A stretch of DNA of 35,419 nt, from contig NZ_BSOS01000066.1 of NCBI RefSeq assembly GCF_030160635.1, positions 1 through 35,419 of the forward strand, written 5' to 3'. The translations under genes and the position numbers were made by a program. This document shows, piece after piece, positions 1,940-34,918 of the stretch; position 1 is the first letter of the stretch, and every line of letters begins with the position of its first letter. The notes below the pieces were generated by a model. The model searched no databases, was not told the origin of the DNA, and saw only the letters and a list, made by a program, of their open reading frames with translations. This DNA is from Acidocella aquatica (GTDB lineage Bacteria; Pseudomonadota; Alphaproteobacteria; Acetobacterales; Acetobacteraceae).

Positions 1940-3076
1940 ATGGAAGAGTTGGCAACGACGCCGGGTGCTGGTTACGCGACACTTGTATTTCTTGAGTATT
2001 TTGAGGATTTGCCGGACCCGCGCCAGCGCGGCAAGGTGATGTATCCGCTGGACGAGGTGTTGCTTTTAGCCCTGCTAGCGGTGCTGGCGGGGGCCGAGAC
2101 CTTTGTTGATATCGCGCGGTTTGGCACCAAGAAGCTTCCTCTTTTGCGCCGGTTTCGGCCGTTTTTGGATGGCACGCCCTCGCACGACCACCTGGGCGAC
2201 ATCTTCGCGAGCCTCGATGCCGAGCAATTCCAGCGCTGCTTTGTGGCCTGGGTGACCGCCCTGACCGGTGCGCCGGCCGAGGTGATTGCCATTGACGGCA
2301 AAACCTCCCGCCGATCGAAGGGCGCGAATGCGGCGATCCACATGGTCTCGGCCTTCGCGGCGCGCCAGCGGCTGGTGCTTGGCCAGGTGAAGGTTGCTGA
2401 AAAATCCAACGAAATTATCGCCATCCCCAAACTGCTCGACAGGCTGGCCATCGAGGGGGCGATTGTTACCATCGATGCGATGGGGTGCCAGCGCGACATC
2501 GCGCAAAAAATTGTCGACAAGAAAGCTGATTACGTGCTGGCGCTCAAAGGCAACCAAGGAACGCTGCGCGAGGATGTTGAGCTATTCGCCACCGAGCAAA
2601 AGGGCCGCCGCTTCGCCGACAGCAAAATCAGCCAGGATACCACGGTTGACGGCGATCACGGCCGGATTGAGACTCGCGAAACCACCGTCCTCCAGAATGT
2701 CGATTGGCTGCAAGAGCGACATAACTGGCCCGGCCTGAAGGCCGTCGTGATGGTCGAGAGCACGCGCGAAATTCAGGGAAAAATCGAGAAGGAAACAAGG
2801 TTTTATCTCACCTCGCTGGTCATGGTCGCAACGCTTATGGGCCCCGTCATCCGCAGCCATTGGGCAATTGAAAACAGCCTACATTGGGTGATGGGCATAG
2901 TCTTCCGCGACGACGAATGCCGGGTCCGAACCGAAAACGCCCCCGCCAACTTCACCACCATCAAGCACATGGCCCATAATCTGATCCGAAAGACACCCGG
3001 CAAGGATTCACTGCGCCTCAAGAGAAAGGTTGCAGCTTGGGACGACGACTTCCTCGCCAGCATCATATCAGCGTAA
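1940..3076 (+). CDS. ISAs1-family transposase
   Basis: A 378-residue DDE transposase of the length usual for ISAs1 (H-repeat-associated) elements. The N-terminal DUF4338/DDE_Tnp_1-associated part contains YFEDLPDPRQRGK. The acidic residues fall in AIDGKTSRRS, in IVTIDAMGCQRDIA and in HWAIENSLHWVMG. GGAGGA sits five bases before the ATG, giving a secure start. The stop lies four bases before the right inverted repeat, as expected for a compact IS. No frameshift or internal stop is present, so the protein is probably functional. It differs clearly from the broken ISAs1-type gene at 11954-12788. Confidence 0.95.
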   Translation: MEELATTPGAGYATLVFLEYFEDLPDPRQRGKVMYPLDEVLLLALLAVLAGAETFVDIARFGTKKLPLLRRFRPFLDGTPSHDHLGDIFASLDAEQFQRCFVAWVTALTGAPAEVIAIDGKTSRRSKGANAAIHMVSAFAARQRLVLGQVKVAEKSNEIIAIPKLLDRLAIEGAIVTIDAMGCQRDIAQKIVDKKADYVLALKGNQGTLREDVELFATEQKGRRFADSKISQDTTVDGDHGRIETRETTVLQNVDWLQERHNWPGLKAVVMVESTREIQGKIEKETRFYLTSLVMVATLMGPVIRSHWAIENSLHWVMGIVFRDDECRVRTENAPANFTTIKHMAHNLIRKTPGKDSLRLKRKVAAWDDDFLASIISA

Positions 3077-5659: not shown

Positions 5660-6502
5660 TTAGCCGCCCATGCTCCGCACCACTGCCGTACCACCGCCAT
5701 CCACGCGCAAATCGCAGCCCGTAATGAAGCTCGCCTCGTCGCTAGCCAGGAACCGTGCCGCGAACGCGATATCCGTCGCAACGCCTGCCCGCCCTGCCGC
5801 TGCAATGTCGATCAATTGCGCGGCACCCACTGTCTCGGCAATTTCCCTGCGCCCCATCGGCGTCAGGATCATGCCCGGAGAGATGGAGGTTATGCGCGCG
5901 CCGCGCTGTCCCCAGGTCAAAGCCCGCCGCTCCACCAGCCCGATAACCGCCTGCTTGCTTAGCGAGTAGCTGGTGCCCGGCGCCCCCGCCGGCGCATTAA
6001 CAGACAAAGCGTCCACCAGCGCCATAATTCTATCCATAAAATCATCAGCCAGCGGATCGGCCATGATCTCCATCGCATCGGGGATCGGCGGCATCATATG
6101 CCCCGCAATGGAAGCGATAAGCACAGCGACAGAGCCCGGGCTCAAAAGCGGCTCGATCGCATTCAGCAACTTGACAGTCGCCACCAAATTCACCGCCATG
6201 ATAGGCCGCGCCGCCGCTTGGGCAGGGGAAAGTCCGGCTGTATGGATCAGCGTTAAAGGCAGCTCGCCAGCCACATCTGCCATTAGGGCCGACATCAGGC
6301 TTTCGCTGCCAAGATCACCAGCCCGCGCGCTGACCACGGTGTAGCCTTCGGCTTCAAGTTCGCCGGCAAACTGCGCCAGGCCCGGCTCAGCCGCATCGGT
6401 CAGCACCAGATCGTGGGTTGCTCCGAACAATCGCGCACAAGCTCGGCCCATTCCACCTGCGGCCCCCGTAATGAATGTCTTTCGGCGTAAGATTGCAGTC
6501 AT
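5660..6502 (-). CDS. SDR-family oxidoreductase (MGR-type subfamily)
   Basis: A 280-residue short-chain dehydrogenase with TGAAGGMG for nucleotide binding, the serine region IASIAGHM and the YSLSK catalytic pair. The C-terminal FITGCDLRVDGGG is conserved. The sequence around SISPGMILTPMGR places it in the same subgroup as the SDR at 32307-33134 and the pseudogene at 22910-23652; all three carry an insert between the Ser region and the Tyr motif and reduce or oxidise an unknown carbonyl/alcohol. It starts 24 bases after the stop of the upstream SDR gene and is probably co-transcribed with it. Confidence 0.9.
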   Translation of the reverse strand: MTAILRRKTFITGAAGGMGRACARLFGATHDLVLTDAAEPGLAQFAGELEAEGYTVVSARAGDLGSESLMSALMADVAGELPLTLIHTAGLSPAQAAARPIMAVNLVATVKLLNAIEPLLSPGSVAVLIASIAGHMMPPIPDAMEIMADPLADDFMDRIMALVDALSVNAPAGAPGTSYSLSKQAVIGLVERRALTWGQRGARITSISPGMILTPMGRREIAETVGAAQLIDIAAAGRAGVATDIAFAARFLASDEASFITGCDLRVDGGGTAVVRSMGG

Positions 6503-6526: not shown

Positions 6527-7261
6527 TCAGTACCATGAAAACCCGCCATCGACTGGAAGCACGGCACCTGTCGTGAAGCCCGAATCCTCGGTCGAGAAAA
6601 ATAAAGCGGCACGTGCCACGTCTTCGGTTTCACCAAGCCGCTTCAGCGCCACCCGGTCTTCCGCGCGCGCCGTATGGGCGGGATTCTCCCACAAATAGCG
6701 GGTCATCTCGGTCTTAATCACGCCAGGGCAGATGGTATTGGAGCGAATTTTGGGCCCCAGATCCATCCCCAGGCACTTCGTCAACATCACCAGCCCTGCC
6801 TTGCTCGCGGAGTAGCCGCTGGTTCCAGGCATCGGCATCACGCCGCTGGTAGAAGCAATGTTGACGATGGTCGCCCGCTCGGCCCGCTGCAGAAACGGCA
6901 GCGCGGCTTTGATAATGTTGAACGGCCCGGTGAGATTGACCGCAATCATCCTGTCCCAGCTTGCCATTTCAAGGTCGGCGAAGGGCGTGATGTCAAGGAT
7001 GCCGGCGGCATTCACAATACCATCCAACCCGAAGACCCTTGCCGCCATGACGACAATTTCGCCAACCTCGGCGCGGGCGCTCACATCGCAGCCATATCCT
7101 TGAACGCCAAGCTCCACGGCTATAGCTGCGACACCCTCCGCATTGCGGTCCAGCAACACCAAAGACGCGCCTTCACTCGCGAACAGTCTGGCAATTTTCT
7201 GGCCCTGCCCGCTCGCAGCACCGGTGATCAAAATCCGCCGACCCTTGAGTTTGTCAGACAT
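6527..7261 (-). CDS. SDR-family oxidoreductase
   Basis: A 244-residue classical SDR, typical FabG-like length. TGAASGQG, the NAAGI motif, the serine in NIASTSGVMP and YSASK are all present, followed by PGVIKTEMTRYLW and the C-terminal PVDGGFSWY. It would interconvert a secondary alcohol and a ketone using NAD(P)(H). It lies 12 bases after the E2-core gene stop and 24 bases before the next SDR gene, so E2 core, SDR and SDR form one transcription unit. No feature defines its substrate. Confidence 0.92.
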   Translation of the reverse strand: MSDKLKGRRILITGAASGQGQKIARLFASEGASLVLLDRNAEGVAAIAVELGVQGYGCDVSARAEVGEIVVMAARVFGLDGIVNAAGILDITPFADLEMASWDRMIAVNLTGPFNIIKAALPFLQRAERATIVNIASTSGVMPMPGTSGYSASKAGLVMLTKCLGMDLGPKIRSNTICPGVIKTEMTRYLWENPAHTARAEDRVALKRLGETEDVARAALFFSTEDSGFTTGAVLPVDGGFSWY

Positions 7262-7273
7262 TTTCCAAATACC

Positions 7274-7984
7274 TCACAAAGTCCACTGTGTCAGGGCATG
7301 CGCGATATGCTTTACGAATCGTGCCGCATCGGCACCATTGATCACGCGATGATCATAGCTCAGAGAAAGCGGCAGCATCTGCCGGGGCGCAAACTCGCTA
7401 CCATTCCAAACCGGCTTCGTCTGGATGCCCGAGACGCCCAGAATCGCCACGTCAGGGGAATTAATGATTGGAGTGAAATAAGTGCCGCCGATCCCACCCA
7501 AGGAAGAGATGGCAAAGCAGCCACCCAACATCCGATCTAGCGGCAGACCTTTGGCCCGCGCCAAAGCGGACACCTCTTTCAGCTCGGCGGCAAGGGTAGG
7601 AATTTCCTTCTGGTCGCAATCGCGCAGCACCGGCACCAGCAGGCCGAGCGGGCCGTCCACGGCGATTCCGATGTGGAAATATTTCTTAAGGACCAAGGTC
7701 TCGCCATCCGGCGTAAGCGAGGCGTTGAACTGCGGAAACGCCTGTAATGCCGACACTACCGCCTTGATTAGGAAAATGAGTGGGGAAGCCTTGATCTCCC
7801 GAGGAAGTGATTTCCGGTAGGCTTCCAGCGCTGTAACATCGGCATCGTCATGATGCGTCACGTGCGGAATCGTGCTGGCGTTCGTCGTCATGGTTTTCGC
7901 CACGACCTTCTGGAAGCGGGTCCGCTTCACTGTCGCTACCTCACCGAATTGCGCGAAATAAGCCTCTGGTGTCGTCTCGCTCAC
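7274..7984 (-). CDS. AceF-like E2 acyltransferase catalytic core without lipoyl domain
   Basis: A 236-residue protein matching only the catalytic (chloramphenicol-acetyltransferase-fold) domain of 2-oxoacid dehydrogenase E2. It begins with AYFAQFGEVATVKRT, equivalent to the FAKYGEIE start of the AceF core, and runs through GGCFAISSLGGIGGTYFTPI to the active-site SYDHRVINGADAARF; the Asn in place of Asp also occurs in some AceF proteins. Lipoyl and peripheral-subunit-binding domains are absent. The start is GTG 7984, with AGGGAG seven bases upstream. A 25-residue upstream extension to 8059 is not E2-like, and the DNA back to the neighbouring gene encodes no lipoyl domain. The likely partners E1-alpha, E1-beta and a free lipoyl domain lie at 29238-31485. 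It might instead act as a lone acyl-CoA acyltransferase. Confidence 0.9.
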   Translation of the reverse strand: MSETTPEAYFAQFGEVATVKRTRFQKVVAKTMTTNASTIPHVTHHDDADVTALEAYRKSLPREIKASPLIFLIKAVVSALQAFPQFNASLTPDGETLVLKKYFHIGIAVDGPLGLLVPVLRDCDQKEIPTLAAELKEVSALARAKGLPLDRMLGGCFAISSLGGIGGTYFTPIINSPDVAILGVSGIQTKPVWNGSEFAPRQMLPLSLSYDHRVINGADAARFVKHIAHALTQWTL

Positions 7985-8143
7985 GCATAGTCTCCCTGAA
8001 TCTGGCTGCGGAATAGTCTCCGGCAGGTCCTGGCGGTCAAGCTGCCCGGCCCGCGACATCGCCGGGGCGCTAGAGCCCGACCGTCTGGAGGAGACGCGCC
8101 TTGCGCGGTAGCCAAGGGCCTGGATCAGTCACTTATCAAATGC

Positions 8144-8515
8144 TCAGAAGGCATTGGCTGGAACAAAGAATCCGGCACGGTCGATATATTCGTCAACCCG
8201 CGTAATCAGCCCGTCGGCGATTTTGGCCACAATGCAGACGTACCACGCCTTGCGGTCGCCAGCCTGCGTATGAACCACGAAAACATGCTGCTGCACCAAC
8301 CCCTCGGCCGTGACCAAACTATGGACATCCTGGATCCAACGCTCCGCCGTGTAGCCGATCAGCCCTTCCATGCTGCAGAGAAAGTCTTCCACGTTAAGGG
8401 CGATGCCGTCAAAGCCGTGCCAGATCACCGCCTCGGGACTGAAACATGCCCGGACCGCGGCAATATCGCCTTTGGCCAACCCATCGAACAGGCGAAGCAG
8501 AGGAGTCTCGCTCAT
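8144..8515 (-). CDS. SnoaL-like / NTF2-fold protein
   Basis: A 123-residue protein of the nuclear-transport-factor-2-like fold, as in SnoaL cyclases and ketosteroid isomerase relatives. The opening helix and ACFSPEAVIWHGFDG, then a GLITRVDEYID strand near the C-terminus, are typical. The start at 8515 (MSETPLL) has GGAGAG seven bases upstream; an earlier in-frame ATG at 8530 is poorly spaced. Such proteins may isomerise, dehydrate or cyclise small ketones, or serve only as binding proteins. It is separated by 159 bases from the E2-core gene on the same strand. Confidence 0.8.
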   Translation of the reverse strand: MSETPLLRLFDGLAKGDIAAVRACFSPEAVIWHGFDGIALNVEDFLCSMEGLIGYTAERWIQDVHSLVTAEGLVQQHVFVVHTQAGDRKAWYVCIVAKIADGLITRVDEYIDRAGFFVPANAF

Positions 8516-8559
8516 TTTGTTACTCTCCAAGGGATACTTATGAAATCAAACCAGTGCGC

Positions 8560-8928
8560 CGGCAGGCGTCAAGAGCCTGAGCTCAGCCATGCGGCCGAGC
8601 CATCGCCGCAGACTTTCGACACTATCCCTGCAGGCGGCAAAACCAGCCTGCCGAATTTTGATTGTGCTGAGCAACACGGGTATGTGTGGACGGCCCGCTG
8701 GGTTCAAGTAGAATTTTGCAAAATCTGGTGGCGGTTCGAATGCGGTCATGTGTCCGGCACGGTGAGATCGACAGCAGCATGCGTGAATGCGCAATCCGCG
8801 GCGGTCACCGGGCGGCGGCGAGACAGCGCTGTGACCTTCAATCCAGGAAGGCGCGTAAAATGCTCGACCGCCGCAGAGCCGATCACGCCGCTTGCGCCGG
8901 CGATGAGTATATGCCCCGACACCGCCAT
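8560..8928 (-). pseudogene. PRISE-type (progesterone 5-beta-reductase-like) reductase, internally deleted
   Basis: The first 60 residues are a Rossmann nucleotide-binding domain starting ILIAGASGVIGSAAVEHF with the NADP-specificity segment TALSRRRP. They end at an early stop. In the following DNA, in another frame, the extreme C-terminus of the same family appears: IKIRQAGFAACRDSVESLRR and WLGRMAELRLL, which resemble the closing helices of PRISE enoyl/enone reductases. These enzymes are normally about 350 residues, so about 250 central residues, including the catalytic Tyr, are gone. The remnant lies between the EthD-like and SnoaL-like genes. Confidence 0.7.
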
Positions 8929-8937
8929 AACCCCCTG

Positions 8938-9273
8938 TTATCCTATGGCCGCGATCGGGTGCCCAATAACCTGGATCATGCCGGATTTATCCAGCGCATC
9001 TGTCGACGGCATTGCCGTCGAACCGAGCAGTACGCGAATACCATCCACCGTTGCCACCGGATCCTCGGTTTCAAGCTCGTAAATAGCGATCAGGCAGTAT
9101 TGCGGCGGCCCAAGATCATAATCCTTCTGCCAGTCCTGCGAAAACAACCGGCCATTCACCACGCCCGGCAGGCGGGCGACGTCGGCAAGATGCTGGTCCC
9201 GATACCAGCGGACATATTCCTCCTCCTGGCCGGCTTTCGCCCGGCTGAGGATGACGTATTGATACCGTGCCAT
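8938..9273 (-). CDS. EthD-like dimeric alpha/beta-barrel protein
   Basis: A small 111-residue protein with the pattern of EthD / dimeric ferredoxin-like barrel proteins: an initial YQYVILSRAKAGQEEEY strand-helix, then WYRDQHLADVARLPGVV (the recurring Y..xH...v...pGv motif) and a second half containing CLIAIYELE. Members often accompany monooxygenases or ring-degrading enzymes; the exact reaction is usually unknown. GAGGA lies seven bases before the ATG. It is the first gene of the minus-strand group reaching to 3149 and is divergent from the SDR at 9435. Confidence 0.75.
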   Translation of the reverse strand: MARYQYVILSRAKAGQEEEYVRWYRDQHLADVARLPGVVNGRLFSQDWQKDYDLGPPQYCLIAIYELETEDPVATVDGIRVLLGSTAMPSTDALDKSGMIQVIGHPIAAIG

Positions 9274-9434
9274 GGCTGCTTCCTCTTATTCTGCCTGGGT
9301 ATTCCCGGGCGATGAGCCGGATGCAACAGCCGGCGCCGCAGCATCGTGCTGGCGATGACGGCAAATCCTGCTTGCATTGCGGGTAACATGGCGCGACGAG
9401 TTGATTATACGAAAATTGTCGGGGAGCTTCGTCT

Positions 9435-10214
<780 letters not shown>

Positions 10215-11286: not shown

Positions 11287-11953
11287 GTGCCGTCCGTCAT
11301 TGATTTTACGGACAATATCTGATTCGATATCTCTGTAACAACAGAGATATCCCGTGACCACGAAACAACCGTCCATAAAGAAATATGTTGTACAACTCAG
11401 TGCTGAGGAGCGTGCGCAGCTTATCTCATTGATTCAAAAAGGAAATCATCCAGCACGGCAAGTTTTGAAGGCGCGAATTTTATTGAAGGCCGATGCGTCG
11501 GATGGCGGTGATGGATGGAGTGACAGCCAGATCGCGGCCGCTTTGGAAACCAGCACTGACACCGTGGCGGTCACCCGCCAGCGTCTGGTGGAGGAGGGGC
11601 TGGAGGGGGCGCTGACGCGCAAACATTCGTTGGCCTCGGCCAGGCAGCGGATTTTTGATGGCGCCGCCGAGGCCAAGCTGATTGCGCTGGCCTGTTCGGA
11701 GCCGCCAAAAGGTCGCGCCCGGTGGACGCTGGAACTGTTGGAAGAAGCCGTGGTGGAATTGAAAATTGTTGCGCGCGCCAGCGACAATACCATTGGCCGG
11801 ACGCTAAAAAAATGCGCCCAAGCCTCACCTCAAAAAACAATGGGTCATCCCGCCGGAGGCCAACGCCAACTTCGTGAGCAGCATGGAGGACGTGCTGGAA
11901 GTCTATCAGCGGCCGCACGATCCGGCCCGCCCGGTGGTCTGTCTGGACGAGTG
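11287..11953 (+). pseudogene. IS630-family transposase, frameshifted and 3'-truncated
   Basis: From GTG 11354 the translation gives an IS630-type N-terminal HTH half (LSAEERAQLISLIQKG, VLKARILLKADAS, RWTLELLEEAVVE). At an A7 run (11806-11812) the homologous frame changes and continues KPHLKKQWVIPPEANANF to PVVCLDE, the first acidic residue of the DDE triad. There the element ends and unrelated ISAs1 sequence begins, so the second and third catalytic residues are missing. The left edge at 11285-11287 is a TA followed by GTGCCGTCCGTC, consistent with IS630 insertion into TA. A reading frame running from 11354 to 12322 is an accidental fusion of two elements. Confidence 0.85.
11326..11351 (+). 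promoter_or_regulatory. strong hairpin covering the transposase ribosome-binding region
   Basis: GATATCTCTGT and ACAGAGATATC form a perfect 11-base stem with a 4-base AACA loop. It ends two bases before the GTG start of the IS630 transposase, so in mRNA it would bury the translation-initiation region. It may limit transposase synthesis from read-through transcripts; that role is inference. Confidence 0.55.
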
Positions 11954-12788
11954 ATGGCGGATAACGGTGATGACCGCCATATTGCCATAGACGGCAAGAC
12001 ATTACGGGCAAGCAAGGACGCAAATGGCCGCGCCGAGCACGTGCTGTCAGCTTTTTGCGGCGGCCTGCAGACGATCCTTTCGCATGAGGCGTCACGCGGC
12101 AAGGGGCTGGAAATTCCCGATGCACTGAAGCTACTGGCCAGGCTTGATTTGCACGACCGGATCGTCACCGGTGATGCAATCTTCTGCCAGAAGTCGATTA
12201 CGCAGGCCGTGGTTTACGGTGGCGGAGACTACCTTCTTCCCATCAAGAACAACCAGAAGACATTACGAGAAAATATTGAAACGGCCTTCGCGGAGCCGGT
12301 TTTCCCCCCTCGCTACCTTTGATAGCGGTGCAACCAAGGCGCATGGGCGCATCGAACAGCGCAGGATCGAAGTGTTACCGGTCCAAGCTGCTGGCATCAC
12401 GCAGGATTGGCCAACCGTCAGCCAGATATGTCGCGTGACCCGTTCACGCCAACGCAGGGTGAAGGGCATGTGGCAGGAGCCACAACAGGAAACCGCGTAT
12501 CTCATCACCAGCCTGACCAAAGACGAAGCATCGCCTGAAGACCTTCTCAACCTCAACCGCCAGCATTGGGGCATCGAGATCATGCATCGAAACAAAGACG
12601 TCATGCGCGGAGAAGATGGCTACACCAACCGGCACGACAACGCACCACGAAATGTATTCTCACTCACCGGCCTCGCTCTCAAAGTCCTGCGCTGCGTCTC
12701 ACCTTCACCCACAAGGGCAATCGAGCATTTCCAGGACAACCGAAGCCGAGCCACACAAATGATCGCAGCCGTTTAATGAATCGCCCTG
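11954..12788 (+). pseudogene. ISAs1-family transposase, 5'-truncated and frameshifted
   Basis: The C-terminal two thirds of an ISAs1 transposase: HIAIDGKTLRASKD (first Asp), RIVTGDAIFCQKSI (second Asp) and, in another frame after a C6 run at 12304-12309, GRIEQRRIEVLPV and LNRQHWGIEIMHRNKD (Glu). The N-terminal third is absent; sequence switches from IS630 to ISAs1 at about 11953. The right end TGAATCGCCCTG (12777-12788) resembles an inverted ISAs1 terminus and abuts IS5 coding sequence, showing insertion into that IS5 gene. It is a different element from the intact copy at 1854-3097. Confidence 0.85.
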
Positions 12789-13435
12789 ACCGATGCCGAA
12801 TGGGCGCTGCTCGCGCCTTTTATGCCGGCACCGGCGCCCAGCGGACGGCCCCGCTCTGTATCTCTGCGCGTGATTGTTGAAGCGATTTCCTACATGTTGA
12901 CGACTGGCTGTCAGTGGCGGCAAATCCCCAGGGAGTTCGCCCCCTTCACCACGGTGCAGGCATATTTCTACCGCTTCAGCCGTGACGGTACGCTCGCACG
13001 CATCAACCAAGCCTTGGTTGCGATGGCGCGGGAACGGGCTGGACGCTCGGCATCGCCAACCGCGGGCGTGATCGACAGCCAGTCGGTGAAAACGACTGAG
13101 GCGGGCGGGCCGCGCGGGTTCGATGCGGGCAAGAAGATTAAGGGCCGCAAACGGCACATTGTCACCGATACGCTCGGGAACCTGGTCGGGCTTGTTATCC
13201 ATCCCGCCGATGTTCAAGATCGCGACGGCGCCCCCGACGTGCTCAAATCCATCCGCAGGAAATACCCGTCCCTGCGGCATGTCTTCGCCGATGGGTCGTC
13301 GAGAGAACCTTCGCCTGGCTCAGCCGATGCCGCCGACTCGCCAAGGATTTCGAGGCAACAATCGCCAGTGCAACCGCATGGGTCCTGCTCGCCAATATCC
13401 GAATACTCACGCGCAAAATCGCACGTCAAAGTTAG
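12786..13435 (+). pseudogene. IS5-family transposase, 5'-truncated with internal deletion
   Basis: Translation begins without a start codon at LTDAEWALLAPFMP, the usual IS5-group N-terminus, cut off by the ISAs1 right end. It continues through MLTTGCQWRQIPREF, GVIDSQSVKTTEAGG and GRKRHIVTDTLG (catalytic domain) to HVFADG near 13295. From there about 30-40 residues are missing and the gene resumes in another frame with VVERTFAWLSRCRRLAKDFE, ending at a TAG at 13435. The element's right end probably lies near 13440-13460, where GAAAGG/CCTTTC and AGAGTC/GACTCT palindromes occur, right at the 3' end of the CoA-transferase gene. Confidence 0.85.
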
Positions 13436-13453
13436 AAAGGCTACCTTTCAGAG

Positions 13454-14764
13454 TCAGACTCTAAATTCGTCTACGAGCAACGCATTGTCCGCACCGAGCG
13501 AGCGAGCAACTCCTACCGCGTCACGCAAGTTATAGAGATCTCCACCATCTGCAACGGCAAGCGCTTGCCAGATCCGGGTCTCGGCCGGTCCCGCCTGCTG
13601 CAGTTGGCAAGCATGGGCGACGACCCGCGACAAAGCCAGCGAAATGAGCTGGCCGCCGCCTGACCGCCAGCTCGCCCACCCAGCAAGAGCTGCGGTAATG
13701 CCTGTGAGCGGATCGGCAATCGCATCGCCAGCAAACAACGCGTTACCCCAGCCCTGCTGCATCGCGCTCGCCAGCCCGCCCGCCACGGCGGCGTCATCGC
13801 CATAACCAATCCAGTCGCCTGCCTCCCCATCACGCCCATGCGCGGTGATCGAGATCCAGGTACTGCCGCGCCGGACCATCTGCGTGGCGTCGAGCCCTAA
13901 CCCGGCCAATGCCCGAGGGCGCGCACTTTCGATCACGATATCAGCGTTAGCGGCCAAATATCGCAATTTTTGTATATCTGCGAGATCGCTGAAATCGAGC
14001 ACGATGCTCGCTTTGCCGGCATTGAGCAAATCGAAAAACCCCGAGTGGCCACCGCGTGCGCCATCCGGGCGGCCCGTGCTTTCGACCTTGAGCACCCGCG
14101 CCCCCGCAATCTGCAGTAGCAACCCGGCCAGCGGGCCAGCCCAGAGTGAGGAGATATCCAGCACCAGCGGCCGGCTGGCCTTATGGCAGGGCGAAGCTAA
14201 ACGCTCGATTGCGAATGGAAAACTGCCCGGCGCAATAACAGCCGATGCGACTTCGACCGGTGCGATTGCTAGGCCAAGCAACCTCCCCTGCTCCACCAAA
14301 GTGGCACAGTTCTGTTTGGCGGCTATGCGCTGCACACCGGCCCAGCCGGAGACCGCTTCACCGAACAAGGCAGGCACTAACTCCCAATCGGTGGCTCGCG
14401 GCAGGTTCAGAGCGATCTGCCCATCCTGGGCGCGCAGCAGGCGGCAACTCCCGTTGGCGGACACCGCGCCGCGCCGCGCCAAACCAAGCAGCCGCGCCCG
14501 CTCACCCAGTAGTAGCGCGCCATTGCGCGGCAGTTTTGCCAAAGGGGCGATAGCCTGCAACGCCGCCAGCGCGCCGTCGGCGGCGGCTGTGAGCGCCACA
14601 GGCGCCACCAGTCCAGGTCCATCTGCACGGCCGGTCACCGCCATCAGCCCAGCCCTGCGCCAAGCAAGGGCGGGGTGATCAGCGTTGACTGTCACATGGC
14701 CGGCCATGCCCAGTCCCGCGAGCAATGTGTGGGCATATGAAGCTGCCAGGACGTCGGTCTCCAT
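13454..14764 (-). CDS. family III CoA-transferase (CaiB/BaiF-like), atypical layout
   Basis: A protein of about 436 residues that would move CoA between acyl groups. The CaiB signature LDISSLWAGPLAGLLLQ, with ARVLKVESTGRPDG and LNAGKASIVLDF, begins near residue 200 rather than at the N-terminus. The segment before it contains WRRAGLMAVTG, resembling a motif normally found later in the fold, so the chain looks rearranged or partly duplicated. A candidate active-site region is GYGDDAAVAGGLASAM. The last residues (DEFRV) are encoded by sequence bordering the IS5 remnant, so the C-terminus may be slightly altered. ATG 14764 (METDVLAA) is preferred; in-frame starts at 14785 and 14833 are possible. 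Divergent from the crotonase gene. Confidence 0.8.
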   Translation of the reverse strand: METDVLAASYAHTLLAGLGMAGHVTVNADHPALAWRRAGLMAVTGRADGPGLVAPVALTAAADGALAALQAIAPLAKLPRNGALLLGERARLLGLARRGAVSANGSCRLLRAQDGQIALNLPRATDWELVPALFGEAVSGWAGVQRIAAKQNCATLVEQGRLLGLAIAPVEVASAVIAPGSFPFAIERLASPCHKASRPLVLDISSLWAGPLAGLLLQIAGARVLKVESTGRPDGARGGHSGFFDLLNAGKASIVLDFSDLADIQKLRYLAANADIVIESARPRALAGLGLDATQMVRRGSTWISITAHGRDGEAGDWIGYGDDAAVAGGLASAMQQGWGNALFAGDAIADPLTGITAALAGWASWRSGGGQLISLALSRVVAHACQLQQAGPAETRIWQALAVADGGDLYNLRDAVGVARSLGADNALLVDEFRV

Positions 14765-25261: not shown

Positions 25262-25624
25262 CTCGTGAACCTTGTTCTTTTGATCATGGGCCTGGGAGAT
25301 CCAGACTCTTAGGAATCTCTCGTCTCTTAACATCGAACGAAATAAAGCGGGATAACTCATCCTCACTATCGCCGGGGCGATGGTGGCTTCGTCCAAACGC
25401 GGATCATTCTCAGCGTAAGTGCATTTGATATCGATTTTGCTTACTTCTTACATCGGATCGCCGGCATTTAAGGTAGCGAATTGACGAGTCTTTTACCGCC
25501 AAAGTTAACCAGCTGCGTTTCACAATTCATCATGTCTCATTGCTGGATTGTACCCGATAGCCTACAATACGAGGAAATGAAGTAAATGAAAAACCAATGT
25601 AATGAGGGGCCGACCGGAAGGCAT
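25262..25624. other. divergent intergenic region
   Basis: These 363 bases separate the minus-strand SnoaL-like gene from the plus-strand catabolic operon and should hold promoters for both directions. A plausible sigma-70-like promoter for the plus operon is listed separately. No convincing gene, RNA or long palindrome was seen. Confidence 0.5.
25540..25568 (+). promoter_or_regulatory. putative sigma-70 promoter of the KstD-to-SDR operon
   Basis: TTGCTG at 25540-25545 and TACAAT at 25563-25568 are separated by 17 bases, matching the consensus at 4/6 and 5/6 positions. It lies about 60 bases before the ATG at 25628. A GAGGA and two-codon frame ATG-AAG-TAA follow at 25571-25585. Confidence 0.4.
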
Positions 25625-25627
25625 ATG

Positions 25628-27298
25628 ATGACCGAATTCAACGAGCTTTTCGATTTTGTCGTAGTTGGCAGCGGCGGCGGATCAATGTGCGCCAGTTTGA
25701 TCATGCGCGAGGCCGGCAAGTCGGTGTTGATCCTGGAAAAAACGCCGCTGATCGGCGGTACCACGGCCCGCTCTGGCGGCGTGATGTGGATTCCAAACAA
25801 TCGCTTCATGAAGCGCGACGGAATTGAAGATAGCCTCGAAAAAGCAACTACCTATTTGGACAATGTCGTTGGCGACCACAACGACACGCCCGGCACCTCG
25901 CGCGAACGGCGCCATGCCTATTTGACCCAGGGGTCTGAAATGGTTGATTTTCTGGTCAAGCAAGGGATAAAGTTGACCCGGGTCAATTATTGGCCGGATT
26001 ATTATGATGAACGCCCTGGCGGATCTGAACAGGGCCGTACTGTGGTGGCCGAGTTGTTCAACGCCAACGAATTGGGAGAATGGAAGCAGAAGCTCCGTCC
26101 CAATTTCATTTCTATGATGAGTACGCTTGATGAAATGCTCAAGCTGAGGTTCCTGAAGCAATCCTGGGAGGCCAAGCGTATTGCGGTCAGGTTCGCGTTG
26201 CGCACGGTGTTTGCGAAGCTAACGGGCAAACATTACGTCACGGCCGGCGCAGCGCTACAAGGGCGGATGTTCCAGGCGGCGCTGAGGTCAAATGTTGAGT
26301 TCCGTACTGAATCTCCGGTCACCGAATTGATCGTCGAGGACGGCGCTGTAAAAGGCATCGTTACAATTAAAGATGGGCGCCCACACCGGGTTGGTGCGCG
26401 GCTCGGCGTCCTCGTGAACGCCGGCGGGTTCGCACAAAATCAGGCAATGCGCGATAAATATCAGCCCGGCACGTCGGTCAAATGGACAAATACGATTGAA
26501 GGCGATACCGGCGAAATGATCCTGGAGATGATGCGCCACGGTGCGGCGATTGCTCAAATGGAAGAAATGGTCGGCAACCAGATGTCGATTGCACCGGGTA
26601 CAGAGGACAATGCCGTGAAGGAGGTTGTTCAGGGCGTAACCGCTGCCCCTCACGCGATCCTGGTTGACCAAACGGGGCAGCGATACATGAACGAGGCCGG
26701 CTCTTACATGACCTATTGCCAGGGTATGCTGGAGCGAAATCGCACGGTTCCGGCAATTCCGAGTTGGGCAATCTTTGATAGTCAGTTCATTCGCAAATAT
26801 ATGCTCGCCGGGACCATGCCCGGTGCAAATAAACCGGCCCGGTGGTTTACAGATGGGTTTCTCAAAAAGGCCGATATGCTGGAGGAGTTGGCCGACATGG
26901 TACAAATAGAACCTGCGGCGCTGCAAGCAACGGTAGAAAGGTTCAATGGTTTTGTCGCAGCCGGCCATGACGCGGACTTTAAGCGCGGCGACCGCGCTTA
27001 TGATCGTTGGCTGGGCGACCCGTTCCACCAGCCCAGCGCATCCCTCGGAGATATCAAGGAGGCGCCGTTTTACGCTATGCCTGTGGTTCCGGGCGATGTA
27101 GGGACTTATGGCGGCGTGGTCACAGACGCCAATGCGCGTGTGCTCCGCGAGGATGGTTCCGTTATCCCCGGGCTTTACGCCACCGGCGTCTCCACCGCCT
27201 CGGTCATGGGACGCGCCTATCCCGGTGCGGGCTCCAGCGTGGGTCCATCTTTCGTCTGGGGTTACGTCGCAGGCAAGCATGCCCTGACCACCTCATAA
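25628..27298 (+). CDS. FAD-dependent 3-ketosteroid-delta1-dehydrogenase-like oxidoreductase
   Basis: A 556-residue flavoprotein of the KstD / fumarate-reductase-like family, which removes two hydrogens next to a ring ketone. FDFVVVGSGGGSMCA binds FAD, followed by GGTTARSGGVMWIPNN, characteristic of KstD. The C-terminal VMGRAYPGAGSSVGPSF keeps the Tyr-Pro-Gly-x-Gly motif that in steroid dehydrogenases carries the tyrosine and glycine binding the substrate 3-keto group. ATG 25628 has GGAAGG six bases upstream; ATGs at 25586 and 25625 are alternatives. First gene of the plus-strand operon. A diverged paralogue is encoded at 33209-34918 on the other strand. Substrate could be a steroid, terpenoid or other cyclic ketone. 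Confidence 0.88.
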   Translation: MTEFNELFDFVVVGSGGGSMCASLIMREAGKSVLILEKTPLIGGTTARSGGVMWIPNNRFMKRDGIEDSLEKATTYLDNVVGDHNDTPGTSRERRHAYLTQGSEMVDFLVKQGIKLTRVNYWPDYYDERPGGSEQGRTVVAELFNANELGEWKQKLRPNFISMMSTLDEMLKLRFLKQSWEAKRIAVRFALRTVFAKLTGKHYVTAGAALQGRMFQAALRSNVEFRTESPVTELIVEDGAVKGIVTIKDGRPHRVGARLGVLVNAGGFAQNQAMRDKYQPGTSVKWTNTIEGDTGEMILEMMRHGAAIAQMEEMVGNQMSIAPGTEDNAVKEVVQGVTAAPHAILVDQTGQRYMNEAGSYMTYCQGMLERNRTVPAIPSWAIFDSQFIRKYMLAGTMPGANKPARWFTDGFLKKADMLEELADMVQIEPAALQATVERFNGFVAAGHDADFKRGDRAYDRWLGDPFHQPSASLGDIKEAPFYAMPVVPGDVGTYGGVVTDANARVLREDGSVIPGLYATGVSTASVMGRAYPGAGSSVGPSFVWGYVAGKHALTTS

Positions 27299-29174: not shown

Positions 29175-29237
29175 TGTCCATGCCCATTGATTATGGCCGG
29201 TACCCTTTGGCGGCCCATACTGTTCACGGAGAATGCT

Positions 29238-30242
29238 GTGAGTGATCGCCCCAACGACCTGAGCCTTGAAAAATTCCGGAGGATGGTGCGCATCCGCGAA
29301 TTTGAAACCGTCGCCGAGGCAATACACGCCGCCGGTGAAGTGCCCGGCGCATTGCATACCTATACTGGCCAGGAAGCCACCGGCGTCGGCGCCTGCATCG
29401 CACTGCGCTCGGATGATTATATGGTAGGCAACCACCGGAGCCATGGCCACCCAATTGCCAAAGGGGCAAAACTTCGTCCGCTGATGGCGGAACTCCTGGG
29501 CAAGGTGACTGGCGTTTGCAAGGGCAAAGGCGGATCCATGCATCTTTCGGATTTTTCGGTCGGCAGTTTGGGTGAAACCAGTATCGTCGGCTCTGGCATC
29601 CCCGTTGCGGCAGGTGCGGCTCTTGGTGCGAAACTGCAACGTAACGGCCGAGTCTCGCTCTGCTTCTTTGGCGACGGCGCCAGCAACGAAGGCGCATTCC
29701 ATGAGGGGCTGAACCTAGCCGCCGTGTGGAAACTGCCAGCGATTTTCCTGTGCGAAAATAATGGTTACGCGGTCTCAACACCCGTCAGCGGGTCAATGGC
29801 GATCGTCAATATAGCTGATCGCGGCAGGGCGTATGGCATTCCGTCAGCGATCGTCGACGGGCAGGACGTGGACGCGGTGGAGGAGGCTGTCGCAGCGGCC
29901 GTCGACAGGGCTCGCGCCGGCGGCGGTCCGACCTTGCTGGAGTCAAAAACCTACCGTTATGCGGACCATGCCGTGAACATGGGGCGGCTGACGCTTAACC
30001 GCGGCCCCGAGGTTGAGGTATGGCGCAAACGCGATCCTATTTTGATGTACCGAGCGCGTTTGCTGGAGGGCGGGATCGCGGCTTCAGTGCTTAACGCGAT
30101 TGTTGAGGAAGTAAAACTGGAGGTGCAGGACGCGCTGGCATTCGCCCGCGAGAGCGCTTATCCGAGCCAGTTGGAAGCCTTCGACGATGTCTTTGTCGAA
30201 CGGCTGCCAATCCCCGCATGGTTGTCGGAGGACATTATCTGA
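29238..30242 (+). CDS. 2-oxoacid (acetoin-type) dehydrogenase E1 alpha subunit
   Basis: A 334-residue thiamine-diphosphate-binding E1-alpha. LHTYTGQEATGVGACIAL, NHRSHGHPIAKGAK, GVCKGKGGSMHLSD and the ThDP/Mg motif beginning FFGDGASNEGAFHEG and ending CENN are all intact; YRYADH is the phosphorylation-loop histidine region. It decarboxylates a 2-oxoacid (or cleaves acetoin) and reductively acylates lipoyl groups together with E1-beta. GTG 29238 has GGAG six bases upstream; the earlier in-frame ATG 29187 would add an unrelated 17 residues. The stop overlaps the E1-beta start by one base (TGATG), indicating translational coupling. Confidence 0.93.
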   Translation: MSDRPNDLSLEKFRRMVRIREFETVAEAIHAAGEVPGALHTYTGQEATGVGACIALRSDDYMVGNHRSHGHPIAKGAKLRPLMAELLGKVTGVCKGKGGSMHLSDFSVGSLGETSIVGSGIPVAAGAALGAKLQRNGRVSLCFFGDGASNEGAFHEGLNLAAVWKLPAIFLCENNGYAVSTPVSGSMAIVNIADRGRAYGIPSAIVDGQDVDAVEEAVAAAVDRARAGGGPTLLESKTYRYADHAVNMGRLTLNRGPEVEVWRKRDPILMYRARLLEGGIAASVLNAIVEEVKLEVQDALAFARESAYPSQLEAFDDVFVERLPIPAWLSEDII

Positions 30243-31246
30243 TGGCAAGAGCCACCTATCTTGAGGCGATCCGCCAGGCTCAAATGGAGGAGATGCAGCG
30301 TGACAGCCGCGTCTTTATCATGGGCGAGGATATCATCTGCAACGTTTTTGGCACAACCACGGGGTTTGTCGATATGTTCGGCGCCGAGCGTGTGCTCGAC
30401 ACGCCAATTTCGGAAAACGGCTTCATTGGTGCGTCTGCCGGTGCCGCGATGGTCGGCGCGCGGCCGATCGTTGACGTTACCATCTCGTCCTTTTTGTATC
30501 CCGCCATGGACCAGATCATCAGCATCATCGCCAAGTCCCGCTATATTTATGGCGGGCAAGCCAGACTACCTCTGGTGATCAGATGTTGTCTTTTCTACGG
30601 TAACTCGAACGCCGCACAGCATAGTGACCGCCCCTATTCCATGTTCATGAACGTGCCTGGTCTGAAAATCATCGTGCCTTCTGACCCGGTTGACATGAAA
30701 GGAATGTTGAAGGTGGCAATTCGCGACGACGATCCTGTGCTTTGCTTCGAGGATAGCACTTGCTGGTCCTCGAAGGCCGATCTCCCGACTGATCCGGATT
30801 TTTTGATCCCGCTCGGAAAGGGCGACGTTAAACGTGAAGGAACGGATGTTTCGGTGATCGCCGTTGCCGGCGCCGTGCCGCTTGCGCTGAAAGCGGCCCA
30901 GAAGCTTGCAGGGCTTGGCATTTCTGCTGAGATCATTGATCCGCGCAGCTTGGTGCCGCTGGATCGCGACCTCATCCTTAAATCGGTTCGAAAGACCGGC
31001 CGGGCGATCACGGTTGATCCGGCGCACCAGACATGCAGCGCAGCGAGCGAGATTTCCGCAATGATTGCAGAGTTTGCTTTTGACGCGCTTCGCGGCCCCG
31101 TGCTGCGCGTGGCAACGGCCGATACGCATCTGCCGTTCAGCCCTGCTATAGAAAAATCGCTCTATCCCTCCGTCGACAGGATTGTCACGGCCGCTTGCCG
31201 GCTGGTTGGCGTAGAGCACTTCGATTCAGCTCAAGGAACCGTATAA
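30242..31246 (+). CDS. 2-oxoacid (acetoin-type) dehydrogenase E1 beta subunit
   Basis: A 334-residue E1-beta. The ThDP-facing Glu lies in LDTPISENGFIGASAGAAM, and RYIYGGQARLPLVIR, NAAQHSDRPYSMF and VPGLKIIVPSDPVDMKGML follow; the C-terminal transketolase domain contains DPRSLVPLDRD. It completes the E1 heterotetramer with the preceding gene. The segment after VIR (CCLFYGNSN) lacks the glycine-rich GPNG-type loop usually seen before AQHS, so substrate access may be unusual. ATG at 30242-30244 overlaps the E1-alpha stop and its own stop TAA (31244-31246) overlaps the ATG of the lipoyl gene, so three genes are coupled. Confidence 0.93.
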   Translation: MARATYLEAIRQAQMEEMQRDSRVFIMGEDIICNVFGTTTGFVDMFGAERVLDTPISENGFIGASAGAAMVGARPIVDVTISSFLYPAMDQIISIIAKSRYIYGGQARLPLVIRCCLFYGNSNAAQHSDRPYSMFMNVPGLKIIVPSDPVDMKGMLKVAIRDDDPVLCFEDSTCWSSKADLPTDPDFLIPLGKGDVKREGTDVSVIAVAGAVPLALKAAQKLAGLGISAEIIDPRSLVPLDRDLILKSVRKTGRAITVDPAHQTCSAASEISAMIAEFAFDALRGPVLRVATADTHLPFSPAIEKSLYPSVDRIVTAACRLVGVEHFDSAQGTV

Positions 31247-31485
31247 TGGCCAAGATTAAGGTATTGCTCCCACAATTCGGCATGGGCATGCAGGACGGCG
31301 AAATTGTCCGCTGGCTGAAAGCTGTCGGCGATAAGGTCGAGGTCGGCGAGATGCTGCTCGAAGTCGAGGCGGCCAAGACCACCGTTGAGATTCCGGCCCC
31401 CGGCAGCGGAACATTGATCGAGATCTTGGTGGAGGAAGGCAACACCACCGCCGTTCGTAATCATATCGCAACGCTCGAGACTTAG
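31246..31485 (+). CDS. stand-alone lipoyl (biotinyl/lipoyl-attachment) domain protein
   Basis: A 79-residue protein that consists of a single lipoyl domain: PQFGMGMQDGEIVRWLKAVG, VEVGEMLLEVEAAKTTVEI and APGSGTLIEILVEEGN. The modifiable lysine is Lys44 in EAAKTT, at the tip of the expected hairpin; the usual DKA is replaced by AKT, while a biotin-type MKM is not present. No linker, subunit-binding domain or acyltransferase follows; the chain stops after ATLET. It overlaps the E1-beta stop by one base. It probably serves as a mobile acyl carrier between E1 and the separate E2 core at 7274-7984. Biotinylation is the alternative. Confidence 0.9.
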   Translation: MAKIKVLLPQFGMGMQDGEIVRWLKAVGDKVEVGEMLLEVEAAKTTVEIPAPGSGTLIEILVEEGNTTAVRNHIATLET

Positions 31486-33208: not shown

Positions 33209-34918
33209 TTACTCAATTATGTTCCCCGCGTTTGCCGCGTGCTTGGCAGCGACATAGCCCCATGTGAAAGACGGGCCTATACTGGCGCCCGGACCCACGG
33301 CATACCTCCCCATAACCGAGGCCGTGCCGGTGCCTGTGGCATACAAACCGGCGATGGGCCGGCCGTCTTCGCGGAGTACGCGGGAGTATTCGTCGCAGAC
33401 GACACCACCGCATGTTCCGACATCGCCTGGGACCATAGGAACGGCGTAGAAGGGCCCCTGCTCTATTGTGCCCAAAGTTGCGGAAGGTTGGTGGAACTGA
33501 TCCCCGAGCCAGCGGTCATATGCGCGGTCGCCGCGGTGGAACTGTGTGTCCTTCCCCGCCTGAACGTCTGCATTGAACTTGTTGACTGTCGCCTTCAGCG
33601 TCACAGGTTCGAGGTTGCAAGCCGCGGCCAGGCCCTCTATGGTCTCGGCGCGCTTTAGCCATCCGGTATCATACCATTCCTGTGGCTTTTTGGAGCCCGG
33701 CATGGTGCCGCAGAACATGTAGTTCTTCATGTATTGCGCATCCATGATCCACCAACTCGGAATCGCCGGTACAGTGGCGTGCCGCTTGCGCATGTTCATG
33801 CAGAATTCAGAGTATGAGCCGCCTTCATTCATGTAGCGTACGCCGGATTGATCAACGAGGATTGCGTGTGGCTTAGCAAGTTCCATCTGGCCCCCAACGC
33901 CGCCAATTTCTATGCCTTTGCCAGTGGTGTTGCCGCGTCCGGGCGGAATTGCCATCTGGCTGCCCATGGTTTCGTCCATCTGGGCTATGTCGGCGCCGAG
34001 CAACATCATCTCACGCAGCATTTCGCCCGTGTCTCCCTCCCGAGCGCCGGTCCATTCCGCAGAGGTATGGGGAATATATTTGTCCCGCATCTCCTGGTTC
34101 TGCGCAAAACCGCCAGCATTCACCAGCACACCGAGTCGCGCACCGATGCGCCACTCTTTGCCTTCCTTGACCGTGACGACGCCCTTGACCGCGCCCTCGT
34201 CCAGAATCAATGATTTGACAGCGGAATCGACACGGATTTCGGTCTTCGCCTTCAGGGCGGCTTGCAGCATGCGGCCCTGAAGAGCCGCACCGGCGGTGGC
34301 CCAGTGCTTACCGGTTAGTTTTGCCATAATGCCGCGGAACCCGACCTTAGCGAGTGTGCGCTTGCCCGCCCAGGAGTTCTTGAACGTGGCGAGCGAAAAC
34401 AGTTCATCGAGGGAAGCTGGAAGCGGCAAGAAATTAGGCCGCAGCTTGGGGACCCAATCTTTTGGCAATTCATTGAGGTTGAACAACTCAGCAACTACCG
34501 TCCGCCCGGGCTCTGAACCGCCTGGACGCTCATCATAATAATCGGGGTAATAGCCGATCCGCCGCAGCTTGATACCCTGGTCAACGAGGAAGTCCACCAT
34601 CTTCGGCCCTTCTTGCAAATAGGCTGCCCGCCGAACCGGGGCCGCGCCGGGCGCATCCTCGGACTGGCCGACTGTCGCGTCCATGTAAGCAGTGGCCTTC
34701 TCGTAACTATCATCGAGCCCCGCTTCGGCCATGAAGCGATTATTAGGAATCCACATGACGCCGCCAGAGTATGCGGTCGTGCCGCCAACCAAATCGGTCT
34801 TTTCGAGAATGACGACGCTTTTGTTTAATGTCCGCATCAGCAAGGCGGCGCACATTGAGCCACCCCCGCTGCCAACAACAACAAAATCGAATGTCTCGTC
34901 GTAGTGCTGTTCACTCAT
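33209..34918 (-). CDS. second KstD-like FAD-dependent oxidoreductase, altered active-site motif
   Basis: A 569-residue flavoprotein clearly paralogous to the one at 25628: FDFVVVGSGGGSMCAALL, GGTTAYSGGVMWIPNN and PFYAVPMVPGDVGTCGG are shared. The C-terminal motif reads VMGRYAVGPGASIGPSF rather than RAYPGAG, so the residue aligned with the catalytic Tyr of 3-ketosteroid delta1-dehydrogenases is Ala, with a Tyr one place earlier; the later Gly is kept. It may therefore act on a different cyclic ketone or in the reverse direction. ATG 34918 (MSEQHYDE) matches the paralogue's N-terminal length. Probable promoter lies in 34919-35000, and the SDR gene follows. Confidence 0.88.
   Translation of the reverse strand: MSEQHYDETFDFVVVGSGGGSMCAALLMRTLNKSVVILEKTDLVGGTTAYSGGVMWIPNNRFMAEAGLDDSYEKATAYMDATVGQSEDAPGAAPVRRAAYLQEGPKMVDFLVDQGIKLRRIGYYPDYYDERPGGSEPGRTVVAELFNLNELPKDWVPKLRPNFLPLPASLDELFSLATFKNSWAGKRTLAKVGFRGIMAKLTGKHWATAGAALQGRMLQAALKAKTEIRVDSAVKSLILDEGAVKGVVTVKEGKEWRIGARLGVLVNAGGFAQNQEMRDKYIPHTSAEWTGAREGDTGEMLREMMLLGADIAQMDETMGSQMAIPPGRGNTTGKGIEIGGVGGQMELAKPHAILVDQSGVRYMNEGGSYSEFCMNMRKRHATVPAIPSWWIMDAQYMKNYMFCGTMPGSKKPQEWYDTGWLKRAETIEGLAAACNLEPVTLKATVNKFNADVQAGKDTQFHRGDRAYDRWLGDQFHQPSATLGTIEQGPFYAVPMVPGDVGTCGGVVCDEYSRVLREDGRPIAGLYATGTGTASVMGRYAVGPGASIGPSFTWGYVAAKHAANAGNIIE

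Follow-up and report, generated by a model that had tools for sequence, protein, structure and literature searches.

The classic example of a swinging arm on a tether is provided by the 2-oxoacid dehydrogenases, whose very large core normally carries the lipoyl arm as part of the E2 chain. Departures from this design are nevertheless known. A C-terminal 3-10 helix joins E2 trimers to one another, and in actinobacterial E2p, where this helix is displaced, the C-terminal change reduces the protein to a trimer and OdhA takes the lipoyl group in trans (PMC10415282, in the portion of the text available). Free one-domain lipoyl proteins serving several enzymes are represented by GcvH of glycine cleavage and LbpA of sulfur oxidation (PMC6067878, in excerpt), and archaeal single-domain lipoyl proteins have been recognised by comparative genomics (PMC3904984, in excerpt). 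In open-licence full text, where subscription journals are mostly absent, no paper describing a bare E2 core together with a free lipoyl protein was found.

Such a core is encoded in the stretch of DNA analysed here, 35,419 nucleotides of an Acidocella aquatica contig (NZ_BSOS01000066.1; the window hereafter). The gene lies at 7274-7984 on the minus strand, a detail added here to an initial annotation that was silent on strand. Translation from a GTG at 7984 yields 236 residues with the C-terminal end ...LPLSLSYDHRVINGADAARFVKHIAHALTQWTL. The single Pfam family in the protein is PF00198 (252.6 bits against a cut-off of 23, residues 16-234), the peripheral-subunit-binding domain PF02817 being absent, and PF00198 also stands alone in the entire stop-to-stop frame (7277-8128, 284 codons), in which Pfam detects neither a lipoyl nor an E3-binding domain. 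The claim that this is an E2 core devoid of lipoyl and subunit-binding domains is therefore borne out. Against the NCBIfam equivalog TIGR01348, a model of the full-length chain, the protein scores 318.3 bits, below the cut-off of 552.1. The proposed start likewise stands: an AGGGAG ribosome-binding site lies at 7992-7997 on the minus strand, 7 bases 5' of the GTG, and the position of the GTG is supported because the stop-to-stop frame of one orthologue (L050) comprises just 236 codons, its first codon being the Val codon that matches the GTG. In L046-L049 the same Val start codon is kept and is preceded by unrelated codons. With dS near saturation, dN/dS amounts to 0.06-0.10 against four orthologues at 82-85% identity and to 0.19 against one at 69%; the gene is under purifying selection and is not a chance ORF. 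Its neighbours are two SDR genes, one beside it at 5660-6502 on the minus strand, present at 65-67% identity in four of the five Acidocella-like loci (L047-L050), and a divergent one at 9435-10214 on the plus strand, present at 73-75% in three of the five (L047-L049).

The relatives of the core were considered as the best 80 of 515, the window's own genome possibly left out; in 71 of these 80 the frame also encodes a lipoyl domain, and nine are bare. The initial annotation had looked to a lipoyl domain fused in close relatives as the sign of a local truncation; the seven top-ranked of the 80, at 65-85% identity, are all bare. Two further bare relatives among them, at 61 and 63%, are interspersed with fused E2s from Rhodanobacter (reaching 64% identity to the core) and its kin (up to 65%). 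The records closest to the core are acid-environment MAGs, one of them titled Acidocella sp. Local truncation is ruled out by the bare orthologues and the low dN/dS, and the bare core architecture is real, conserved and unusual.

Further, a tree built from 49 cores groups 21 bare ones in one clade nested among fused AceF-type E2s with a support of 90/99, which falls below the program's own 95/80 mark; their unity as a clade is thus moderately supported. The active-site motif HRVING occurs in all 21 bare cores and in none of the 23 fused AceF-type rows of the tree, every one of which reads HRVIDG, and a C-terminal RR..LL-type tail is found in 0/21 bare cores versus 23/23 fused rows. A 22nd bare member (L244), found later and standing outside the tree, bears the same motif and tail marks. 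The core itself reads DHRVING, so that the HXXXDG/NG motif is kept, with His212, Asn216 and Ser161 as the predicted catalytic residues; the retention of the active site, as claimed at the outset, holds for the core and, through the shared HRVING, for all 21. The Asn at the motif position is also present in the fused Azotobacter enzyme, where PDB titles name Ser558, His610 and Asn614 as residues studied for catalysis, and Asn in place of Asp is for this reason not diagnostic of bare cores.

Since the C-terminal tail that joins trimers in fused E2s is lost, the core would probably work as a plain trimer, and the bare cores as a group are probably trimers. Structure prediction of the core alone, envisaged in the initial annotation, returned a monomer model (pLDDT 82.5, pTM 0.84, residues 164-177 under 50) whose best PDB matches are the E2p cores of E. 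coli and Azotobacter, at 51-52% identity and TM 0.72-0.75, with a poor overall rmsd of 12.7 A on superposition upon the best of them. The model is of moderate quality and adds nothing beyond sequence. A more distant bare E2 was also encountered (L221; G346, 6782-9718), a 270-codon frame immediately preceded by a divergent E1 and a lipoyl gene of its own. It lies outside the bare-core clade, on a very long branch of the 49-core tree, and hints that the split between E2 and lipoyl domain arose more than once. Several other candidates were rejected as bare cores: the short E2 frames L217, L219 and L220 (in G444, G381 and G382) run off contig ends, the frame in G021 (L040/L045) reaches a contig end, the match on pADP-1 belongs to a truncated AceF that shows HRVIDG and retains the C-terminal tail, that in Cupriavidus is a 621-codon frame with HRVIDG, and those in Aminobacter and Phaeobacter are full-length E2s. 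A search of viral contigs and phages yielded nothing useful.

A gene for a free lipoyl protein is adjacent to seven of the 22 bare cores. The gene order is E1-alpha, E1-beta, free lipoyl and bare E2 in Paraburkholderia sprentiae, Diaphorobacter sp. HDW4B and Paraburkholderia sp. PGU19; G145 presents E1-beta, lipoyl and E2, the row starting at the contig end; and in Azospirillum B510, in G068 and on contig C5 of the window's own genome a lipoyl gene lies directly 5' of the bare E2. Such a row of genes looks like a split 2-oxoacid dehydrogenase, and the relatives suggest a conserved split design rather than a broken gene. With the lipoyl gene directly 5' of the core in relatives, the idea of a dismantled complex with a separately made carrier, one of two offered by the initial annotation, gains support. 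Another seven bare cores have a free lipoyl gene and a type A E1 (type A being the label for the E1 proteins of these bare-core and free-lipoyl sets) on the same contig, 8-42 kb off. For the other eight no linked lipoyl gene was seen on the stretch or contig: the window itself, L046, L049, L052 and L229 (these with type A on other contigs), L048, a 2.1-Mb genome in which no type A E1 was found, L044, of which 16.6 kb were seen, and L126, a plasmid only, with a partial gene list. Nor is the free lipoyl gene always a neighbour of type A E1: it adjoins one in 36 of 41 assessable places (two more places are cut), the exceptions being C5, L181, L185, L247 and L248, and three of the 36 lipoyl genes sit in frames of 182, 318 and 763 codons that may be fusions.

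The window's genome, searched as an assembly of 4.03 Mb in 137 contigs, holds three sets of E1 with a free lipoyl protein and two bare cores. One set lies in the window on the plus strand and is here termed type B: E1-alpha at 29187-30242, E1-beta at 30218-31246 and, at 31246-31485, a free lipoyl carrier of 79 residues with a predicted lipoyl-lysine at Lys44. This small protein, pointed out in the initial annotation, is real (PF00364, 65.7 bits). No E2 lies beside the module (29187-31485) in the window. Between the type B E1-alpha and the type A proteins identity is 37-42%. The module is kept in Sphingobium RAC03, in Croceicoccus and in four further genomes, and in all seven places the lipoyl gene stands behind E1-beta and an adjacent E2 in none. 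The two type A sets are found on the 3.6-kb contig C55 (E1-alpha, E1-beta, lipoyl, SDR) and on C5, where the E1 is about 16 kb from the lipoyl-E2 pair. Two lipoamide dehydrogenases (E3) exceed the cut-off in this genome, on C88 and C99, neither beside the bare core; a free-standing E3-binding domain over the cut-off is absent from it, PF02817 occurring only inside three fused E2s.

Gene order in relatives bears on where C55 belongs. The type A lipoyl gene of G151 and G154 lies about 8 kb from the core, beside an orthologue of the 3-ketosteroid-dehydrogenase-like flavoprotein encoded at 33209-34918 on the minus strand of the window, and by this order C55 would be expected to the right of the window; in L047 and L050 the flavoprotein orthologue is located some 6 kb from the core and comes after type A lipoyl, E1-beta and E1-alpha, all four in one orientation. 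These arrangements suggest that C55 adjoins the window. No shared words were found between the window end and the C55 end. At the other C55 end (L024 3517-3582) lie 66 bases that match window 12723-12788 at 98%, beside a transposase gene, and a copy of this transposase-linked element is probably where C55 broke off. Pfam marks three DDE-type transposase genes or remnants in the window, at 1940-3076, 11354-12322 and 12822-13535, and the island looks repeatedly rearranged. It contains two ketosteroid-dehydrogenase-like flavoproteins, at 25586-27298 and 33209-34918, the second of which is syntenic with type A E1 operons in relatives. The neighbouring genes, which encode Rieske oxygenases, ketosteroid-dehydrogenase-like flavoproteins, P450s, CoA ligases and acyl-CoA dehydrogenases, would, as gene context, point to the catabolism of steroid- or terpenoid-like compounds.

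Type A E1 is also found on plasmids of tomato-root Sphingobium strains; a term search of the main text of PMC10653915, which concerns tomato-root Sphingobium, gave no match in the portion available. On the plasmid of Sphingobium sp. TomMM7A (L247) the type A E1 is annotated as acetoin:DCPIP oxidoreductase and has no adjacent lipoyl gene. On a plasmid of Streptomyces sp. NBC_00564 (L250) a type A E1 pair and a free lipoyl gene stand behind a Rieske oxygenase and a flavoprotein; as this host is an actinomycete, the E1-lipoyl module crosses phyla.

Which carrier accompanies the core can be asked of the genomes that hold it. Among the nine genomes with the closest homologues of the core, eight carry type A E1, five of them on the core's own contig, and one carries type B; the ninth, a 2.1-Mb MAG, yielded neither type A nor type B E1. 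In a draw of 346 Sphingomonadales genomes (core match threshold E 1e-50) the core occurs in four, G155, G449, G488 and G491, bare in each. Type A E1 at a minimum of 54% identity is present in nine of the 346, namely in 4/4 genomes with the core and 5/342 without it. Leaving out G155, the centre of the draw, which was picked for its core, the comparison is 3/3 against 5/342 (Fisher p 8e-6, related genomes being treated as independent). Type B is present in six of the 346 (three at 73-74%, three at 52-56%), none of which has the core, and it is absent from all four core-bearing genomes. The initial annotation had taken the carrier at 31246-31485 to be exactly the one that a bare core would need; it belongs to the type B E1, which only one of the nine closest-core genomes carries, and is probably not the core's main partner, or at best a second one. 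The co-occurrence that it had envisaged holds in part: core and type B meet in the window's genome, in G158 and on one Croceicoccus plasmid, but in none of the 346 Sphingomonadales genomes drawn. On these counts a type A lipoyl protein, that of C55 or that of C5, is the likeliest main carrier for the core in this genome.

The tie between the core and type A is looser in the other direction. When type A E1 is counted at a minimum of 50% identity it appears in 23 Sphingomonadales genomes, 19 of which lack a core match at E 1e-50; the E1-plus-lipoyl module therefore does not need the core, and the case for core and type A E1 as an obligate pair is weakened. Three of the core-less type A genomes (G459, G426 and G304) gave no bare E2 of any kind in a PF00198 search, and in a fourth (G382) the only E2 frames were fused or cut by a contig end. 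In two core-less sphingomonad genomes the gene behind the free lipoyl gene is not an E2, being in one of them a LuxR-type regulator. For such stand-alone type A modules it may be, as a guess, that the housekeeping E2 takes the acyl group of the carrier.

Overall, it is fairly probable that the core belongs to a dismantled 2-oxoacid dehydrogenase as its acyl-transferring (E2) component, what is usually one E2 chain being made as two proteins, a bare catalytic core and a free lipoyl carrier of about 76 residues. The bare architecture, the motif, the selection, the single clade and the operons of relatives are read from sequence, and from these we infer the activity, the partner, the trimer, the shared E3 and the substrate. 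In this scheme the free carrier would receive its acyl group from E1-alpha/beta, through decarboxylation of a 2-oxo acid (or cleavage of an acyloin); the loaded carrier would diffuse to the core, which would hand the acyl group to CoA by the AceF mechanism through His212, Asn216 and Ser161; and reoxidation of the carrier would fall to a housekeeping E3. The type B protein at 31246-31485 would be a possible second client of the core.

Three other readings have to be set against the split dehydrogenase. That the core works with the carrier of its own window, in one complex with the E1 at 29187-31246, is favoured by the presence of both on one 35-kb contig and by their meeting in G158 and on the Croceicoccus plasmid; the type B E1-lipoyl pair, with no E2 adjacent in any of its seven places, must borrow one, and sharing is plausible in a genome with three E1-plus-free-lipoyl sets and two bare cores. 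The distribution speaks the other way (type B in one of the nine closest-core genomes and in none of the four Sphingomonadales genomes with the core, the core in none of the six with type B), and the type B carrier shares just 34-42% identity with carriers encoded next to a bare core or a type A E1, which leaves this pairing unlikely.

Still less probable is a free acyl-CoA acyltransferase for which lipoyl thioesters have ceased to be substrates, the other idea in the initial annotation. In its favour, none of the loci seen from the subclade of the window's core (12 tree rows) has a lipoyl gene directly beside the core; yet the AceF active-site residues are retained throughout this subclade, type A E1 accompanies the closest homologues in eight of nine genomes, and a lipoyl gene adjoins the core in six of nine tree rows of the sister subclade, to which the PGU19 operon adds. 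It is these operons in relatives that make the reading less likely. A decaying or truncated AceF fragment deserves hardly any credence. Insertion elements do crowd the window, and the remnant on pADP-1, with HRVIDG and an RRIVM tail, is a genuine instance of a truncated AceF; the core, however, combines low dN/dS with a conserved start and ribosome site, it has bare orthologues in several genera, and the motif and tail differences that run through its clade are absent from the pADP-1 fragment.

A wider picture may also be drawn, to which we give somewhat less than even weight: a fully untethered 2-oxoacid dehydrogenase in which a separate E1, carrier, trimeric E2 and shared E3 would meet by diffusion, in the manner of glycine cleavage, with neither cubic core nor subunit-binding domain. 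It would have a single AceF-type origin, both arms and the trimer-joining tail having been lost, would have spread on plasmids and catabolic islands, and one core would perhaps be shared by the carriers of several E1 modules. A conserved lineage in which the arm is separate and the core probably trimeric would allow a direct test of what tethering and the cubic core are for. Moreover, it would draw attention to an enzyme module that recurs in catabolic clusters still uncharacterised, with a Rieske oxygenase, a ketosteroid-dehydrogenase-like flavoprotein and a CoA ligase, the chemistry of which is now annotated piecemeal.

Finally, the parts of the system are familiar one by one. NCBI annotation already names a 'lipoyl domain-containing protein' and a '2-oxo acid dehydrogenase subunit E2' singly on plasmids, and is silent on the E2 being bare and on the set forming a split complex. 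With the AceF-type E2p of E. coli (4n72/7b9k) and Azotobacter vinelandii (1eaa) the core shares its catalytic domain, at about 51-52% identity in the structure search, the active-site His and Ser and, with the Azotobacter enzyme, the Asn; unlike them it has no lipoyl domain, no subunit-binding domain and no C-terminal RR..LL-type tail. The glycine cleavage system that GcvH serves is not known to have an acyltransferase core or an acyl-CoA product. As a one-domain lipoyl protein the free carrier may be likened to GcvH and LbpA, and the LbpA system differs from a split E2 in having no acyltransferase core and no acyl-CoA product (PMC6067878, as far as the excerpt goes). The archaeal single-domain proteins resemble the free carriers in being lipoyl-only, and the excerpt of PMC3904984 ties them neither to bare E2 cores nor to an E1-E2 operon. 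With actinobacterial E2p and OdhA the proposed split system would share a trimeric E2 that arises through a C-terminal change and a lipoyl group supplied in trans; that change is an insertion in the actinobacterial protein and a lost tail in the bare cores, and the actinobacterial carrier is still a domain of full-length AceF, whereas here it is a separate one-domain protein (PMC10415282, in the portion available).
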